Assembly: GCF_000620845.1 (NCBI RefSeq)
Contig: NZ_KK211189.1
Span: 256,501 to 320,500 of the forward strand
DNA length: 64,000 nucleotides
From: Exiguobacterium marinum DSM 16307
GTDB lineage: Bacteria > Bacillota > Bacilli > Exiguobacteriales > Exiguobacteriaceae
Reading direction: 5' to 3'
Numbering within the stretch: the first letter of the stretch is position 1; every line of letters starts with the position of its first letter. Both the position numbers and the translations under genes were made by a program. The notes under the pieces are model-generated. The model worked only from the letters and a program-made list of their open reading frames with translations, had not been told where the DNA came from and did no database searches. Shown here in pieces: positions 4,705 to 43,624 of this stretch.

Positions 4705-5604
4705 ATGAACAAGCGCCTTTTGTTTCTGGCGCTCTCTCTCTTTTGTTTTAGCTTCTGGACGTGGACGAGCGCCCAAGAATCGTCGTCACCACCTGTAGAA
4801 GAAAAACAAATAGAGGAGAGCCCGGATTTAACGGCTGAATTCTCACTTCTACAGGAAGAGGTGAAAAAGCTACGTTTAGCCGAGGAAGAAGAAAACGCCA
4901 AGGCCGTCACCCCTGTTCAAATCCAGATCCCTAAAATCGATGTCGATACGGCAATTGAACAAGTCGGTGTCCTGAACAATGGACAGATGGGCGTACCAGA
5001 AGATGAGAACCAGGTCGGGTGGTTCGAACCCGGTGTCACACCAGGTAGCAAAGGAAATGCCGTGATTGCTGGTCATGTGGATAGCAAGACCGGCCCGGCT
5101 ATCTTTTATCAACTCGATCAACTCAAAGAAGGCGATGACGTTCTGATTCAAGATGAGGCGGGAAACATCTTACGATTCCGCGTCACGAAAACAGAACGCT
5201 ATGATACGAAAACCGCGCCAATTGAAGAGATTTTCGGTGCCACATCAAATCGGAACTTAAATTTGATCACCTGTTCGGGGACGTTCGGGGACGGAGGCTA
5301 TGATGAACGATTCGTCGTCTATACAGAGCTGGTGGATACCGAACTGAACGAAACTGTCGATCTCGAGACACCGACGGCAATCGAGCTGAAAGGTAACTTA
5401 TTGACATGGCACGCCGTTCGTCAAGAGAGCGTGATTGGATATCGGATCTATGAAGTCATCGACGGAAAAGCGACTCATATCGAAAGTATCCCATCCCATG
5501 CACGAAAAAGTATCGAGGTCACAAGTGAGAACAACGCATCCTACTACGTGACTGCGATTGACAAGCTTGGAAATGAGTCAAAACCGTCTCAGATGACAAA
5601 ATGA
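4705..5604 (+). CDS. Class F-type sortase with C-terminal fibronectin III-like domain
   Basis: 299 residues. An N-terminal hydrophobic signal/anchor (about 1-23) is followed by an acidic coiled linker. The sortase barrel starts at about residue 70 (VQIQIPKIDV). The catalytic triad is visible as H124 in IAGHVD, C190 in LITCSG and R202 in YDERFVVYTEL. This TLXTC-like arrangement and small size resemble class F (formerly unclassified) sortases. Residues about 220-299 (LTWHAV, GYRIYEV, YYVTAIDKLGNES) look like an FN3 module, an unusual addition. It sits outside the membrane and would transfer the upstream MPETG protein to peptidoglycan. RBS is AAGGAGGG. Confidence 0.85.
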   Translation: MNKRLLFLALSLFCFSFWTWTSAQESSSPPVEEKQIEESPDLTAEFSLLQEEVKKLRLAEEEENAKAVTPVQIQIPKIDVDTAIEQVGVLNNGQMGVPEDENQVGWFEPGVTPGSKGNAVIAGHVDSKTGPAIFYQLDQLKEGDDVLIQDEAGNILRFRVTKTERYDTKTAPIEEIFGATSNRNLNLITCSGTFGDGGYDERFVVYTELVDTELNETVDLETPTAIELKGNLLTWHAVRQESVIGYRIYEVIDGKATHIESIPSHARKSIEVTSENNASYYVTAIDKLGNESKPSQMTK

Positions 5605-37602: not shown

Positions 37603-37637
37603 TCAAAAGGCAGCCACACGCGGTGGCTGCCTTTTTA
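37603..37637. terminator. Bidirectional terminator
   Basis: AAAAGGCAGCCAC/GTGGCTGCCTTTT stem around a short loop, with T-tracts on both strands, between convergent genes. Confidence 0.9.
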
Positions 37638-38342
37638 TATGACGAGTAATAAAAACGCATATCCTAATAAACCAATCAAAAATGCACCAAAACTACTCTC
37701 TCGCTCAGCAGGTAACTCTTCTTTCATGACGTTCAAGATGACGCCACCTGCCAAAAAGGCGACAACGATAGATAGACCGAGTCCATTCACTTCTCCAAAC
37801 GAACCGACCGCCCACCCTACAAGTACAGCAAGCGCTAACAAGACGCGTCCCTGTCGATCATAAAGTTGTTGATGATGCTGACGCAATCCTTGATCGACCG
37901 TAACAAAGTGAATGCCAAGCGCTATGAAGTAAAGAAACATCGTCCCATTTGACTGAAATTCACTTTCTGCGAGCACATATCCGATGCTAAACGTATAGAG
38001 CGTGAATGAACCTATGTGAATCCAAAACACATACGGTTTTTGTTTACGTTTGTTGGCCGTTGCGAATCGCTCGAGCCCGTAAAAGACAGCCAGTCCTAAC
38101 ATACTGATGATCAAGATATGGTTCTCGAGGGAGGCGAAGACGTTGTTTCCAATCTCCCCTTCTAGTTCACGTTGGTACTCATTTAACTCTGGCAATAGAT
38201 GAAGGAATACATAAGCAACGGCAATCCCGCCCGCCACTGATAAAAAACGGCTCCTCGGCACTTCACGCACATGAATGAGCTTTCCTGAAAAAAAGTGAAT
38301 CATCGCAAAACCGAGTGCAAACCAAAAACTTAACTCGAACAC
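37635..38342 (-). CDS. ZIP-like integral membrane protein
   Basis: 235 residues with about seven or eight membrane helices. Segments GGIAVAYVFLHLLPELNE and VAFLAGGVILNVMKEELP resemble the first and a later helix of ZIP metal transporters. However, the paired metal-site HxxxE motifs of the central ZIP helices are not intact (IHFVTVDQGLRQHH stands in their place). It may be a divergent or non-transporting relative. Single gene with a terminator shared with its convergent neighbour. Confidence 0.6.
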   Translation of the reverse strand: MFELSFWFALGFAMIHFFSGKLIHVREVPRSRFLSVAGGIAVAYVFLHLLPELNEYQRELEGEIGNNVFASLENHILIISMLGLAVFYGLERFATANKRKQKPYVFWIHIGSFTLYTFSIGYVLAESEFQSNGTMFLYFIALGIHFVTVDQGLRQHHQQLYDRQGRVLLALAVLVGWAVGSFGEVNGLGLSIVVAFLAGGVILNVMKEELPAERESSFGAFLIGLLGYAFLLLVI

Positions 38343-38405: not shown

Positions 38406-40322
38406 TCATTTTCGGTTAGATCGCTCTTGTTTCTTTCTTTCCCGAATCTCTTTCTCCACTCGCCGTAGCGCTTTTTTCGATCCTCGTTCGAAGTCGTGCG
38501 CTTCCTTTCGTTCCTGATACGTCGTGAATAGCGTTTCCAAATCATAGTCAGCCGGATAAAGTTCCGTTGCTCGTGCTTCTAACCGGACACGACGACTCGG
38601 CAACTCTACGTAATCGTCATTCACGAACACCCGGACATGCCGACGAGATGCATCGAACGCATAGACAAGCCCGACTTGATTCGTCTCTAACAACCGGACA
38701 CGGTCACCTTTTTCAAAGCGTTCCGCCTCTTCAAGCGGTGCCGCTTCGATTTCGCGTGTGATTTTAGAATCATCGACTTTCGTAGTGTCATACGTTTTCT
38801 CGTTCATGTAACGAGATGCCTGTTTCAATATCGCTTCCGGCAACTTCATCTTGCGGGCGATAAAGAGGGCGTTGCTGTCACCAGACTGCCCCATGAGCAA
38901 TCGATATTTCGGTTCGAGCGTTTCCGGGTCAAACTGCATCGCAGCGTTCATGAAATCTGGGTGGGATTCAGAATACGATTTGATTTCTCCGTAATGGGTC
39001 GAAGCCACGACAATCGCCCCTCGTTTATATGCCGCTTCTAAGATGGCAATTGCAAGAGCGGCTCCTTCGTTCGGTTCCGTACCGCTTCCGATTTCGTCGA
39101 ATAACAAGAGTGACCGTTTTCCAGCGGTTTGCATAATATTCGCCACATTGTGCATATGCGCCGAGAACGTACTGAGTGCCGACTCCAAATCTTGATTATC
39201 TCCGATATCGACGAACACCTCATCGAATGTAGAGATGACCGTGTCGGTGTGTGTCGGGATATGCAATCCTGTCATGGTCATGAGACTGAGAAGTCCAATC
39301 GTTTTCAATACGACCGTCTTTCCGCCGGCGTTCGGTCCGGTGATAATTAAGCCGCGATAGTCCGTACCGATGGCAAAATCGAGTGGAACGGCACTTTCTA
39401 AGAGTGGATGACGTACTTGTTTCAATTGAATTCGACCAGTCGCATTCACGTGTGGTGTCACGCCATCAATCGATTGACTATACTTCCCTTTGGCGAAAAC
39501 CATATCGTACTGGGCGATGACATCGAGTGTCGCCTCAATTTCAGGAAGAACTTCAGTCACTGCTCCCGTCAATGTCGCCAACACTTGATACACTTCCACC
39601 GCTTCTTCCGTACGCTTGACGACGAGCTCGGCGTTCAACTTCGAAATGGCCTCGGGTTCGATAAAGACCGTCGTGCCGCGATTCGATGTGTCTACAATCG
39701 TACCCGCTACTTTGTGCTTGTATGAAGCTTTGATTGGGATCGTGAAGCGGTCCTGTTTTTTCGTGACAAATCCGTCTTGAATCATCTCGCGATTGGCAGC
39801 GCTCTTTAAGAATTTGTTCAATCGTTCCTCGATTCGTCCTTCCAAAATGTCGACTTGCTTGCGAATCCGCTTCAACTCTTTCGACGCCTCGTCGACGACC
39901 TGACCAGCTCGAATCGCTCGTGTGATGTCTTCTTCTAGCGTCCGCCATTCGCCCATCCCGACAGCATAAGCCGACAAGAGCGGTGCAAAAAATTCATGTT
40001 CGAGCATGAATCGTTTCAGTTTGCGCGCTCCCCGTAAAAACTCGACGACCGCTTCAAGTTCTGTTGCTTCGAGTTGGATGCCTCGTTGCAGTTTCCCGAT
40101 AATCGTCTCCATGTCAGACACGCCGATAAATGGGACGTGTGACGTCGCATCTAAAATCGCTCGGGCTTCGGATGTTTCCTGCAGACGTTTCTTCACCGTC
40201 GCGATGTGGCTCGTCGGACGTTGTTGTCTGAGTAACCTTCTCCCGAATCCGCTGATGCAGAAGCGCTCTACTCTCGTCATCAATTCGTTGTATTGTAATT
40301 TTTCAAATGTTTGTTCGTTCAT
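38406..40322 (-). CDS. MutS2-like ATPase lacking the Smr nuclease domain
   Basis: 638 residues against about 785 for MutS2. The core is complete: clamp/lever helices, GTTVFIEPEAI, Walker A GPNAGGKT (329-336), LSTFSAHM, Walker B LLLFDEIGSGTEP and VASTHY. A KOW-like segment (KGDRVRLLETNQVGLVYAF, about 545-580) follows, then a basic helical tail ends the protein with no Smr domain. B. subtilis MutS2 binds collided ribosomes; this shorter paralogue could split or remodel them without nuclease action (inference). RBS GAGGAGAG. It is preceded by a leader peptide and terminator. Confidence 0.85.
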   Translation of the reverse strand: MNEQTFEKLQYNELMTRVERFCISGFGRRLLRQQRPTSHIATVKKRLQETSEARAILDATSHVPFIGVSDMETIIGKLQRGIQLEATELEAVVEFLRGARKLKRFMLEHEFFAPLLSAYAVGMGEWRTLEEDITRAIRAGQVVDEASKELKRIRKQVDILEGRIEERLNKFLKSAANREMIQDGFVTKKQDRFTIPIKASYKHKVAGTIVDTSNRGTTVFIEPEAISKLNAELVVKRTEEAVEVYQVLATLTGAVTEVLPEIEATLDVIAQYDMVFAKGKYSQSIDGVTPHVNATGRIQLKQVRHPLLESAVPLDFAIGTDYRGLIITGPNAGGKTVVLKTIGLLSLMTMTGLHIPTHTDTVISTFDEVFVDIGDNQDLESALSTFSAHMHNVANIMQTAGKRSLLLFDEIGSGTEPNEGAALAIAILEAAYKRGAIVVASTHYGEIKSYSESHPDFMNAAMQFDPETLEPKYRLLMGQSGDSNALFIARKMKLPEAILKQASRYMNEKTYDTTKVDDSKITREIEAAPLEEAERFEKGDRVRLLETNQVGLVYAFDASRRHVRVFVNDDYVELPSRRVRLEARATELYPADYDLETLFTTYQERKEAHDFERGSKKALRRVEKEIRERKKQERSNRK

Positions 40323-40350
40323 GTGTCTCTCTCCTCAAATGATAGAATCG

Positions 40351-40440
40351 AGATACCGCGCAAACAAAAAAGCGTCGGTCGATGACGACCAACGCAAAAA
40401 GACAGACCGGTGTCTGGCAGTTTTTGATGGGCGGTATCTG
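40351..40440 (-). promoter_or_regulatory. Attenuator structures in the mutS2-like leader
   Basis: On the minus strand CAGATACCGC (40440-40431) can pair either with GTATCTG inside the leader-peptide ORF (40507-40501) or with GCGGTATCT beyond the terminator (40359-40351). Between them are a small hairpin CAGACACCGGTCTG with TCTTTTT and the main terminator. Mutually exclusive pairing tied to a short ORF is the layout of ribosome-mediated attenuation. Confidence 0.65.
40366..40395 (-). terminator. Leader terminator (attenuator) of the mutS2-like gene
   Basis: GCGTTGGTCG/CGACCGACGC stem (one mismatch) with a TCAT loop and six T residues, located 44 bases upstream of the start codon of the gene it would shut off. 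Confidence 0.8.
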
Positions 40441-40495
40441 TAACGGAACATGACGGCATGACAAATAAACGTGTCATCCGACATTTTTCAGTTCG

Positions 40496-40525
40496 TTAGG
40501 CAGATACAACCTCACTCATCAACAT
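40496..40525 (-). CDS. Leader peptide MLMSEVVSA upstream of the mutS2-like gene
   Basis: A 9-codon ORF, MLMSEVVSA, with AAAGGTG 6 bases before its ATG and a start about 25 bases after the predicted transcription start. Codons 6-9 include the sequence that can pair with the downstream attenuator arm, so a ribosome stalled here would change RNA folding. Too short for standard gene finders. Confidence 0.6.
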   Translation of the reverse strand: MLMSEVVSA

Positions 40526-40555
40526 GCAACACCTTTCTCACTTAGATTCGTCCTT

Positions 40556-40584
40556 ACTATACAACAGATTCTCTGCCTTGTAAA
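40556..40584 (-). promoter_or_regulatory. Promoter of the mutS2-like gene and leader
   Basis: On the minus strand TTTACA (40584-40579) and TATAGT (40561-40556) are exactly 17 bases apart, a strong sigma-A match. Transcription would begin near 40549, giving a leader of about 225 bases. Confidence 0.75.
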
Positions 40585-40779: not shown

Positions 40780-41268
40780 ATGCTATGGAATAAGTTAATG
40801 AATCGACACAAACCCACACTGCACTCACCAATGGAAGGAGACGTCATTCCACTCGAACAAGTAGCGGACTCGGTCTTCAGTGAAAAAATGATGGGCGACG
40901 GTATTGCCATCACACCAACGGATGGCGCCGTCGTCTCACCGGCTGACGGCGAAATCATACAAATCGCTCCGACAAAGCACGCCATCGGCATTCGGACCGA
41001 GGATGGGGCTGAGATTTTGATTCACGTCGGTCTCGATACCGTCGAACTCGAAGGTCGACCGTTTGATCTTCAAGTAGATGTGGGCGACCACGTCAAGACG
41101 GGACAGCTGTTACTGACAGCGGACTTAGCACAAATCCATCAAGCCGGTAAGGACACGGTCACGCCAATGGTCGTGACGAATGGGGGCGCGCTTGCTCATC
41201 ATTACGCCTTCACATTCACGAAGGAAGCCGTCCCAGGCAAGACGGTTGTCGCCCGAGTGGAAGCGTGA
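40780..41268 (+). CDS. PTS glucose-family IIA component (Crr-like)
   Basis: 162 residues. Phosphorylation site H82 in ILIHVGLDTVEL and the second active-site H67 in PTKHAIG, within the Crr/IIA-Glc beta-sandwich; the ending VPGKTVVARV is typical. Receives phosphate from HPr and gives it to the IICB protein encoded two genes downstream. It may also serve other PTS permeases. First gene after the RAT/terminator leader, so its expression depends on GlcT. Confidence 0.93.
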   Translation: MLWNKLMNRHKPTLHSPMEGDVIPLEQVADSVFSEKMMGDGIAITPTDGAVVSPADGEIIQIAPTKHAIGIRTEDGAEILIHVGLDTVELEGRPFDLQVDVGDHVKTGQLLLTADLAQIHQAGKDTVTPMVVTNGGALAHHYAFTFTKEAVPGKTVVARVEA

Positions 41269-41288
41269 CTCCGGAACAAGGAGGACAC

Positions 41289-42131
41289 ATGATTAAAATC
41301 AAAAAGATTCTAAACAACAATGCGGTCATCGTCTCGGACGAAGGTGAAGAAAAGATTGCGATTGGTCCGGGCGTCGCGTTTAAAAAAACGAAGAACGACA
41401 TCGTCAATCCACATAAAATCGAAAAGTTGTTCATCATGCCAGAGAATGACAAGTTCCAACAGTTATTGAGTCGGATCCCGGTTGAGCACTTCACCGTTTC
41501 CGAGGATATTATCTCCTATGCAGAGAAGCGTCTCGAGACATCGTTCAACGAACATATCCACATCGTCTTGACCGACCACATCTCGTTCGCCATCGAACGG
41601 GAGATGGATGGCATCTTATTACGCAACAAACTGTTGAATGAGATTAAAATCCTCTATCGCAATGAGTACGAGATTGGACTGTGGGCGATTGAACATATCG
41701 CTGAAAAGCTCAACGTGAAAATGCCGAAAGACGAAGCCGCGTTCATCGCGCTTCATATCCATACGATGAAAGTGAAAGGAGGTGATTTACGCAAGACGGT
41801 CAAACAGACAACGATTGTCCGCGACATGATTCAATCGATTTCACGACGACTCGATGTATCCATTGAAGAAGATGACTTATCCTACCAACGATTATTAACT
41901 CATTTACGGTTCGTCATGGATCGGGTCAACCACTACGATCATCACACGATTGATGAAGACATGCTCCGCATGATTCAGACGAAGTTCACGTCTGCCTACG
42001 CGTGTGCATCTGATGTCGCGAAAGAAATGGAAGAGACATATGGCGTCGTCTTGCCCGAGTCAGAACTTGGCTATATTACGCTCCACATTCAACGCCTACA
42101 AGATCAACACCACCAAAAAGGAGGACATTAA
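41289..42131 (+). CDS. glcT: GlcT-family transcription antiterminator
   Basis: 280 residues. The N-terminal RNA-binding CAT domain (MIKIKKILNNNAVIVSD, then GPGVAFKK) is followed by two PRD domains with the phosphorylatable histidines in NEHIHIVLTDH, ALHIHTMK, VNHYDHHT and ITLHIQRL. It binds the RAT upstream of the operon and prevents termination when sugar is being transported; IICB phosphorylation inactivates it. Start at 41289 (AAGGAGG upstream). In B. subtilis glcT is a separate gene before ptsG; here it lies inside the operon it controls. Confidence 0.93.
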   Translation: MIKIKKILNNNAVIVSDEGEEKIAIGPGVAFKKTKNDIVNPHKIEKLFIMPENDKFQQLLSRIPVEHFTVSEDIISYAEKRLETSFNEHIHIVLTDHISFAIEREMDGILLRNKLLNEIKILYRNEYEIGLWAIEHIAEKLNVKMPKDEAAFIALHIHTMKVKGGDLRKTVKQTTIVRDMIQSISRRLDVSIEEDDLSYQRLLTHLRFVMDRVNHYDHHTIDEDMLRMIQTKFTSAYACASDVAKEMEETYGVVLPESELGYITLHIQRLQDQHHQKGGH

Positions 42132-42133
42132 CA

Positions 42134-43624
42134 ATGATGAATTATTTGCAACGTCTCGGACGTTCCCTCATGTTACCGGTTGCTGTACTTCCGGCAGCCG
42201 CCATTCTCATGGGGATTGGTTATTGGATCGACCCATCTGGTTGGGGGTCAGGAAACATTGCCGCTGCATTCTTAATTAAGGCAGGGGCCGCCATTATCGA
42301 TAACATTCCAATTCTTTTCGCAGTCGGGGTAGGTCTCGGAATGTCAAAAAACCGTGACGGTTCAGCTGCACTGAGTGGACTCGTGGCTTATTTGACCGTC
42401 ACGACACTTTTGGCAGCCGGAACGGTCGCCTTGTTCCAAGGCATTGACGTCGAAGCCGTCAACCCGGCATTCTCGAGAATTGAAAATGCATTTATCGGTA
42501 TTTTATCAGGATTAATTGCCGCTAGTATGTACAACCGCTTCAGTCACGTCAAACTACCAGACGCCCTCGCGTTCTTTAGTGGGAAGCGTCTCGTTCCGAT
42601 CATGACGGCCTTCTCGATGATTCTCGTATCGGTCGCCCTTTACTTTATCTGGCCAATCGTCTTTACAGGTCTTGTCGGATTCGGGGAGTCGATTTCTAAA
42701 CTTGGCGCATTCGGTGCCGGGCTATACGGATTCTTTAACCGTCTCTTGATTCCGACTGGTCTTCATCACGCCCTCAACTCGGTATTCTGGTTCGATGTCG
42801 CTGACATTAACGATATCGGAAAGTTCTGGTCGGGTGAAGGTGAAAAAGGTGTAACAGGGATGTATCAAGCCGGATTCTTCCCAATCATGATGTTCGGTCT
42901 TCCTGCTGCAGCACTTGCGATGTACCATACAGCGAAGACAAAACGGAAGAAACAAGCGGCATCACTACTATTCGCAGCAGCGTTCGCTTCATTCTTTACA
43001 GGTGTAACTGAACCACTTGAGTTCTCGTTTATGTTCCTCGCTCCTGTTCTTTACCTTGTACACGCAGTCCTTACAGGAATCTCGCTCTTTATTGCAGCAA
43101 CGTTCCAATGGACAGCTGGCTTTACATTTAGTGCAGGTCTCGTTGACTTCTTCCTCAGTTCAAGATTACCTCTTGCCAATCAGCCGTACATGCTCATTGT
43201 GCAAGGTCTCGTATTCGCAGTCATTTACTACGCGATCTTCCGCTTCATGATTGTGAAGTTTAACTTAATGACGCCAGGCCGCGAATCAGATGAAGTCGTT
43301 GATGCAGTTGCTAGTGAGACAGCAGACGGCGAAACGAAGGTCGCGCCGGTCGCATCAGCTTCAGGTAGCGAATACTCAGCAATGGCAAATATGATTTATG
43401 ACGGTCTCGGTGGTGACAGCAACGTCACAGGTATCGAGTCTTGCATCACACGCTTACGCGTCGATGTCAAAGACATGGATACGGTCAACCAAGATCAAAT
43501 CAAGAAAGCTGGTATTCCTGGTGTGAAAGTCGTCAGTCCAAACCATATTCAAGTCATCGTCGGCACAAACGTTCAGTTCGTCCTCGATGAGATTGAAAAA
43601 ATTCGTAGCCACCGCGCCGGATAA
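42134..43624 (+). CDS. PTS glucose/N-acetylglucosamine-family IICB permease
   Basis: 496 residues: a IIC membrane domain (about 1-390, about 10 helices; motif GVTEPLEFSFMF) and a C-terminal IIB domain with phosphocysteine C437 in GIESCITRLRV. No fused IIA; that is the separate first gene. The stretches GFFPIMMFGLPAAALAMY and LTGISLFIAATFQ look closer to NagE than to PtsG, whereas the leader RAT is glucose-type. The sugar is therefore glucose or N-acetylglucosamine, undecided. RBS AAGGAGG. Terminator follows. Confidence 0.9.
   Translation: MMNYLQRLGRSLMLPVAVLPAAAILMGIGYWIDPSGWGSGNIAAAFLIKAGAAIIDNIPILFAVGVGLGMSKNRDGSAALSGLVAYLTVTTLLAAGTVALFQGIDVEAVNPAFSRIENAFIGILSGLIAASMYNRFSHVKLPDALAFFSGKRLVPIMTAFSMILVSVALYFIWPIVFTGLVGFGESISKLGAFGAGLYGFFNRLLIPTGLHHALNSVFWFDVADINDIGKFWSGEGEKGVTGMYQAGFFPIMMFGLPAAALAMYHTAKTKRKKQAASLLFAAAFASFFTGVTEPLEFSFMFLAPVLYLVHAVLTGISLFIAATFQWTAGFTFSAGLVDFFLSSRLPLANQPYMLIVQGLVFAVIYYAIFRFMIVKFNLMTPGRESDEVVDAVASETADGETKVAPVASASGSEYSAMANMIYDGLGGDSNVTGIESCITRLRVDVKDMDTVNQDQIKKAGIPGVKVVSPNHIQVIVGTNVQFVLDEIEKIRSHRAG

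Follow-up and report, generated by a model that had tools for sequence, protein, structure and literature searches.

A MutS2 paralogue without the Smr domain and its candidate ribosome-sensing leader in Exiguobacterium and other Bacilli

The stretch of DNA considered here, called the window throughout, comprises 64,000 nucleotides from Exiguobacterium marinum DSM 16307 (contig NZ_KK211189.1, positions 256,501 to 320,500 of the forward strand). Its minus strand carries a gene of the MutS2 kind, at 40322-38406, which encodes a protein of 638 amino acids and stands behind a vegetative promoter and a leader with the look of an attenuator. A first-pass annotation, made from the letters alone, had described in this leader a promoter, a short upstream open reading frame (uORF), a set of pairing arms and two hairpins, and all of these were found on the minus strand in the places given, base for base. 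The same annotation took the product to be a MutS2 paralogue that ends before the Smr nuclease domain and proposed that the leader senses stalled ribosomes. The first of these statements is borne out by the protein comparisons, and the second is probable once the leaders of relatives are considered.

A MutS2 paralogue that ends before Smr

The protein consists of a MutS core and an ABC ATPase, recognized by Pfam as MutS_V, without MutS domains I and II and with a KOW-type domain following the ATPase. Its Walker A motif GPNAGGKT (residues 329-336, 39315-39338 on the minus strand) is invariant in all 32 Smr-less rows of the alignment, and the Walker B motif, here LLLFDE (residues 405-410, 39093-39110), is present in 31 of the 32. 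Beyond them lie a KOW-type five-strand barrel (residues 533-586, 38565-38726) and a conserved basic C-terminal helix (residues 616-637, 38412-38477), at the point where full-length MutS2 runs on into Smr. Pfam finds no Smr domain in the 638 residues; in the full-length MutS2 encoded elsewhere in the same genome, a protein longer by 146 residues, it finds one at 1.9e-23. The HGxGxG motif is likewise missing from every Smr-less row (0/32) and present in every full-length row (29/29), whereas a LYPxxYD motif marks 31 of the 32 Smr-less proteins, the exception being a short frame (L165), and none of the 29 full-length ones.

Other identities were considered for this ATPase. There is no Pfam match to MutS_I, the mismatch-recognition domain I, and the genome's own MutS is a separate gene. 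The two ABC cassettes and linker of the antibiotic-resistance ABC-F proteins are replaced by a single MutS_V ATPase on a MutS2 core, and neither the Pfam nor the NCBIfam scan of the protein returned an HflX-type GTPase domain. The protein does pass the cut-off of the NCBIfam equivalog "endonuclease MutS2" (577 against 400 bits) though it has no Smr, so that automatic annotation probably hides the family; two homologues in the plasmid collection are annotated as "endonuclease MutS2" and "DNA mismatch repair protein MutS", one each.

When 398 genomes from the class were screened at a threshold of E <= 1e-120, 55 gave a match, and 19 of these belong to the genus of the window. Fifty of the 55 were taken as Smr-less from the length of the frame and, where it was read, the C-terminus; the remaining five have other frames (G118, G108, G305, G134 and G067). 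One further member, in G394, was detected solely through its leader. Full-length MutS2 is also present in all 29 genomes that were searched for it, and the Smr-less protein is therefore a paralogue. In a quick tree of 61 proteins the 32 Smr-less rows fall together on one side of a single branch, with support of 100 in the approximate likelihood-ratio test (SH-aLRT), and divide into two subclades.

Presence of the gene is patchy. At the same threshold one of the 19 sister-genus genomes has it, as against 19 of 19 in the genus of the window, which suggests transfer or repeated loss. Two possible settings for such a gene were rejected. The five plasmid records found in PLSDB are 34-43% identical and all non-mobilizable, and at least one is probably an ordinary MutS2; a search for anti-phage systems with PADLOC yielded only a weak ATPase match.

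The leader RNA and its conservation

Transcription of the window leader would start from a sigma-A type promoter, TTTACA-17-TATAGT, at 40584-40556 on the minus strand (a 10/12 match, from the sequence and a motif scan). Downstream lies a Shine-Dalgarno sequence AGGTG (40530-40534) inside an AAAGGTG that is invariant in the 19 leaders of the genus, followed by the uORF ATG TTG ATG AGT GAG GTT GTA TCT GCC TAA (40525-40496), which would encode MLMSEVVSA. The uORF and its ribosome site are thus as first described. The nine-residue length is not, since the functional start is probably the second in-frame ATG at 40519, giving the 7-codon MSEVVSA: the copy in the sister genus (G323, L168), whose uORF reads MSGVVSA, has no other in-frame ATG, and in the other leader families most uORFs have 7 codons.

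The 3' part of the uORF contains arm A, GTATCTG (40507-40501), and its complement CAGATAC (40440-40434) falls within arm B, CAGATACCGC (40431-40440), the putative switching arm. Within B, AGATACCGC (40439-40431) is also the complement of arm C, GCGGTATCT (40359-40351), and C is in turn the predicted partner of the Shine-Dalgarno sequence of the Smr-less gene, GAGGAG at 40331-40336. Between B and C a scan finds a weak hairpin, T1 (CAGACACCGGTCTG, 40416-40403), followed by a T-rich stretch, and then T2 (40395-40366), a hairpin of 10 pairs, 7 of them G-C, that ends in six T and resembles an intrinsic terminator. All of these elements are on the minus strand. The whole leader has a folding energy of -85.4 kcal/mol (z -5.44); 200 dinucleotide-shuffled versions have -60.9 +/- 4.5, and none of them reached so low a value.

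The uORF is conserved far beyond this genome. It occurs in all 19 Exiguobacterium genomes, once in each, with two variable bases in all, both of them synonymous. For wider comparison we used 66 loci of other Bacilli (an 80-locus set minus 14 Exiguobacterium loci), comprising 52 type-I and 14 type-II leaders, and an in-frame uORF beginning MS is found at 63 of them. Type-I peptides include MSAVGSK, MSAVVSK, MSGVVSK and similar sequences; type-II peptides are MSGVGIN, MSVVGIN, MSEVGMN and MSEVGMS. Two leader types encode Ser2 by AGY, the third by TCN. At three loci (L090, L096 and L111) the RNA arm is kept and the peptide is frame-shifted, to MSVHRF, MSAGSF and MSASRF, MSASRF being a reading by eye. 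Each of the 14 loci fetched from subclade 2, 11 of which are in the tree, has a uORF ending in VLN or VLS together with a complementary arm, the uORF sequence GTTCTTAAC (GTTCTTAGC in L165) standing opposite a downstream GTTAAGAAC, and the G394 leader is arranged likewise. A few uORFs depart from these patterns: those of L150 and L151 have 6 codons and that of L149 has 3 (all read by eye), the L150 frame can be read as MSVASI or MSQVSK, and L156 and L157 carry MMLIVF with a complement of its own (also by eye).

No uORF of these patterns precedes full-length mutS2 at any of 29 loci, while a regular-expression scan recovered one at 78 of 85 Smr-less loci; four of the others (L053, L067, L076 and L091) were missed by the pattern or the Shine-Dalgarno filter and were present in another scan. 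Searches with leader words alone point the same way. A 17-base word from the type-I arm B occurs in five of the 398 genomes, always before a Smr-less gene, and the VLN uORF word, when as many as 3 mismatches are allowed, is found in nine, in eight of them before a Smr-less gene and in the ninth within an unrelated coding frame. Contiguous complementarity of at least 8 bases, a test that the bulged type-I helix mostly fails, is seen in 16/48 Smr-less leaders, 0/29 full-length leaders and 10/480 locally shuffled ones. In ten leaders (L048, L055, L060, L061, L069, L072, L081, L084, L103 and L140) there is extra sequence between the terminator and the ribosome site, several times with inverted repeats, as judged by eye or from length.

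Alignment of homologous leaders, a check that the first-pass annotation had named beforehand, gave a conserved uORF and a covarying A:B helix. Applied to the 52 type-I leaders, RNAalifold found A:B, a long-range helix P0:P0' and the terminator unprompted, and with the uORF removed it found B:C. Covariation was counted on 43 of the 52, leaving out eight longer leaders and L090. The off-state structure (A:B, P0:P0' and the terminator) is paired in 95.5% of cells, against 37-42% in slid controls, and contains 8 pairs changed on both sides where 3.4 are expected, a number reached in none of 500 shuffles. Two of these changes lie in A:B, one from U-A to C-G (two rows) and one from G-C to A-U (four rows), the latter turning a TAG stop of the uORF into TAA in three of its four rows. 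The alternative helix B:C is 89% paired, and its single both-side change occurs in five rows; its covariation score lies above that of shuffles (0/500), in an alignment with a one-base offset at C in four rows. In a duplex test on single leaders, which used the wrong uORF for L056, B:C reached p <= 0.01 in 32 of 49 type-I leaders and in none of the 19 from Exiguobacterium. The latter are 91% identical to one another and too similar to covary.

The P0:P0' helix joins the 5' end of the type-I leader to the sequence that immediately precedes arm C (alignment A2, columns 32-45 with 442-456, e.g. L088 upstream of 3001) and shows four both-side changes. It would cross B:C, so the two would be alternatives or form a pseudoknot.

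How the leader may act, and what else it could be

The switch can be followed in calculated pairing probabilities. Free Exiguobacterium leaders have an A:B probability of 1.0, the window leader among them, and a B:C probability of 0. With the uORF masked, the B:C probability rises to a mean of 0.78 and exceeds 0.5 in 17 of the 19 leaders, as against 0 of 19 under a control mask, and predicted pairing of C with the Shine-Dalgarno sequence falls from a mean of 0.78 to 0.29 (0.41 to 0.21 in the window). Contacts of B with the terminators are a separate matter. In 4 of the 19 genus leaders, the ones examined for this, the 3' arm of T1 is complementary to 6 bases of B when G-U pairs are included, and among the 35 type-I leaders matched by the regular expression 33 have at least 6 contiguous pairs between B and the terminator, compared with 9.7% of mononucleotide shuffles; these rows are related, and G-U pairs were counted here too. 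B was not accepted as a conserved antitermination arm beyond a possibility, given the relatedness of the rows, the counting of G-U and the fact that, in the four Exiguobacterium leaders examined, B touches the weak T1 alone. For Exiguobacterium the modelling more clearly favours a Shine-Dalgarno switch than antitermination. The first description, a leader of the inducible-resistance type, stands as regards the uORF and the alternative pairings, found before Smr-less genes and not before full-length mutS2.

These features fit together in a gene for ribosome rescue or protection that would be inducible, a stall on the uORF switching on a MutS2-type factor, and we regard this as the likely explanation. 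RNA polymerase would start at the vegetative promoter, and a ribosome would translate the uORF of 7-9 codons. When the uORF is completed, A would fold onto B and the terminators would form; in any RNA that reads through, C would hold the Shine-Dalgarno sequence of the main gene and expression would stay low. A ribosome stalled on the uORF, most plausibly by a compound that inhibits the peptidyl-transferase centre or the exit tunnel, would cover A and leave B free to pair with C, which would release the Shine-Dalgarno sequence; B may also invade a terminator hairpin. The induced protein would then act on stalled ribosomes through its ATPase and KOW domain, without Smr. We infer the inducer, antitermination, the splitting of ribosomes and an effect on survival from this arrangement. 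A stall near the start of the uORF would fit better than a strict arrest peptide, as the uORFs are short and three leaders have a shifted peptide.

A factor that splits or protects ribosomes independently of Smr is suggested by analogy with Bacillus subtilis, whose MutS2 is also named RqcU. In that species MutS2 splits ribosomes by its ATPase, the same ATPase is required for survival of erythromycin, and mutants affected in KOW or Smr are only very modestly sensitive to the drug (PMC10897456). The Smr-less product retains the ATPase that MutS2 needs, and Smr mutants of B. subtilis are barely sensitive; on these two points rests the proposed independence from Smr.

Several results weigh against the proposed switch or the role given to its product. 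The window pairings are each within chance when taken singly (A:B p=0.07 and B:C p=0.056 in 300 shuffles). The two alternative pairings of one arm that the first-pass annotation had described are real as complementarity and conserved, without exceeding chance in the window by themselves, and the case for them rests on comparison across species. Even among relatives, single-leader tests of A:B give p <= 0.01 in 0/19 Exiguobacterium, 5/49 type-I, 0/14 type-II and 4/9 VLN leaders, and the number of both-side changes in B:C is not above that of shuffles (342/500 reach it). In Exiguobacterium, masking the uORF raises the predicted accessibility of the Shine-Dalgarno sequence only from 0.15 to 0.30. 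The type-I calculation, run on the 14 of 52 leaders that the regular expression matched, put B:C above 0.5 in 9 when masked, 1 when free and 2 under the control mask. A search of 4 Exiguobacterium leaders turned up no pairing by which the strong hairpin T2 would be opened. The three leaders that keep the arm and lose the peptide argue against a strict arrest peptide. Finally, MutS2 of B. subtilis deleted for Smr binds ribosomes much less (PMC10897456), so the Smr-less protein may do something else.

The alternative that survives best is a general feedback on translation stress, in which the uORF would report ribosomes that are stalled or slow for any cause, be it starvation, failing rescue or a missing splitting activity, and the Smr-less MutS2 would be a stress-induced rescue factor and not one of drug resistance. 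The clade-by-clade variation of the uORF peptides, and the three frame-shifted cases with the RNA arm kept, fit such feedback in that a drug-specific arrest peptide may be unneeded, and VmlR is reported to be induced by translation defects too (PMC9226507). Yet a short uORF with a terminator and a hidden Shine-Dalgarno sequence is the anatomy described for drug-inducible ABC-F genes (PMC9226507, PMC10201436), and the occurrence in one of 19 sister-genus genomes suits an accessory trait better than housekeeping. We consider general stress feedback rather unlikely, with a real if minor claim.

Attenuation by amino-acid supply, or a T-box-like control, of a DNA-repair or recombination protein would also employ a uORF and a terminator, an anatomy well established for such systems, the uORF then sensing charged tRNA. 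It is very improbable here: the uORFs examined contain no run of a single codon, and no Rfam family was found on the leader strand of the window or, at gathering score, in the leaders of seven loci. A T-box, riboswitch or other known leader RNA was rejected as well, the Rfam hits being a chance match on the opposite strand of the window leader and, among the seven relatives, one gathering-score match outside the leader (L060, 6395-6462). That the leader is a plain terminator with chance hairpins and an unused uORF would agree with the p values of about 0.06 for the two window pairings by themselves, and is made scarcely credible by the fold (z -5.4), the covariation, the uORF at 63/66 distant loci against 0/29 full-length mutS2 genes, and the use of both AGY and TCN codons for Ser2.

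Neighbouring genes and known systems

The Smr-less gene has no one fixed operon partner, and what lies downstream of it varies across most of the 13 loci displayed. In the window, 63 bases after the gene, 37635-38342 on the minus strand encodes a membrane-type protein of 235 amino acids with a weak, below-cut-off match to ZIP zinc transporters; a homologue lies downstream at 14/14 Exiguobacterium loci and 0/66 others. Upstream and divergent, 40780-43624 on the plus strand carries an EIIA gene of the phosphotransferase system (PTS; PF00358), an RNA-binding PRD antiterminator (CAT_RBD and PRD) and then, by eye, a PTS-permease-like gene. At 7 of the 80 loci, from six genera, a GNAT acetyltransferase frame (Pfam Acetyltransf_1) is directly downstream (L038, L048, L057, L082, L086, L088 and L111, about 4897-5508), and another adjoins one subclade-2 gene (L164, 2455-2982). 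The protein scanned, that of L086, matched no NCBIfam family above cut-off. The acetyltransferase may be a partner of the Smr-less gene in part of the family.

A literature search, judged by title or the start of the abstract and with preprints and most subscription journals not covered, found among the matches listed no paper in which a uORF or attenuator is linked to a gene of the MutS2 type. Regulation of this kind is known; the protein under its control and the families of leaders appear to be new. What they join are two known parts, the ribosome-stall leader of drug-resistance genes and an ATPase of the MutS2 family of ribosome splitters. If this is correct, a range of Bacilli possess an inducible paralogue for ribosome rescue to which databases may give the name "endonuclease MutS2", it becomes testable whether MutS2 can dispense with the Smr collision sensor when it acts on single stalled ribosomes, and the leader RNAs offer a clear prediction of response to drugs.

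Listeria possesses HflXr, an inducible second copy of a ribosome-splitting factor that is linked to drug resistance; HflXr is an HflX-family GTPase, and the window protein is of the MutS2 kind. We lean, by a modest degree, towards regarding Smr-less MutS2 as a third and so far unrecognised class of antibiotic-inducible ribosome ATPase or GTPase, beside the resistance ABC-F proteins and HflXr. Its members would dismantle drug-stalled ribosomes, or clear the drug, with no need for Smr to sense collisions, and would be switched on by leader RNAs that have reached several sequence solutions within the Bacilli.

MutS2 of B. subtilis shares with its paralogue a lever/clamp core, an ABC ATPase and a KOW domain (PMC10897456). 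The window protein differs in lacking Smr and in having the basic C-terminal helix, the LYPxxYD motif and a regulated leader of its own. The closest parallels to that leader are found among ABC-F genes. In the vmlR leader of B. subtilis a uORF lies in an anti-antiterminator hairpin and is followed by a terminator, a hairpin over the Shine-Dalgarno sequence and an alternative pairing that opens it, the logic being release of the Shine-Dalgarno sequence with the terminator as a further layer (PMC9226507). The likeness is one of described anatomy; the vmlR uORF has 3 codons (MIN) and controls an ABC-F protein. The cplR leader of Clostridioides difficile similarly joins translational and transcriptional attenuation through a stall on a uORF; unlike the window leader, it encodes MR[I/M], its terminator hairpin itself holds the Shine-Dalgarno sequence, and the gene it controls is again an ABC-F (PMC10201436).

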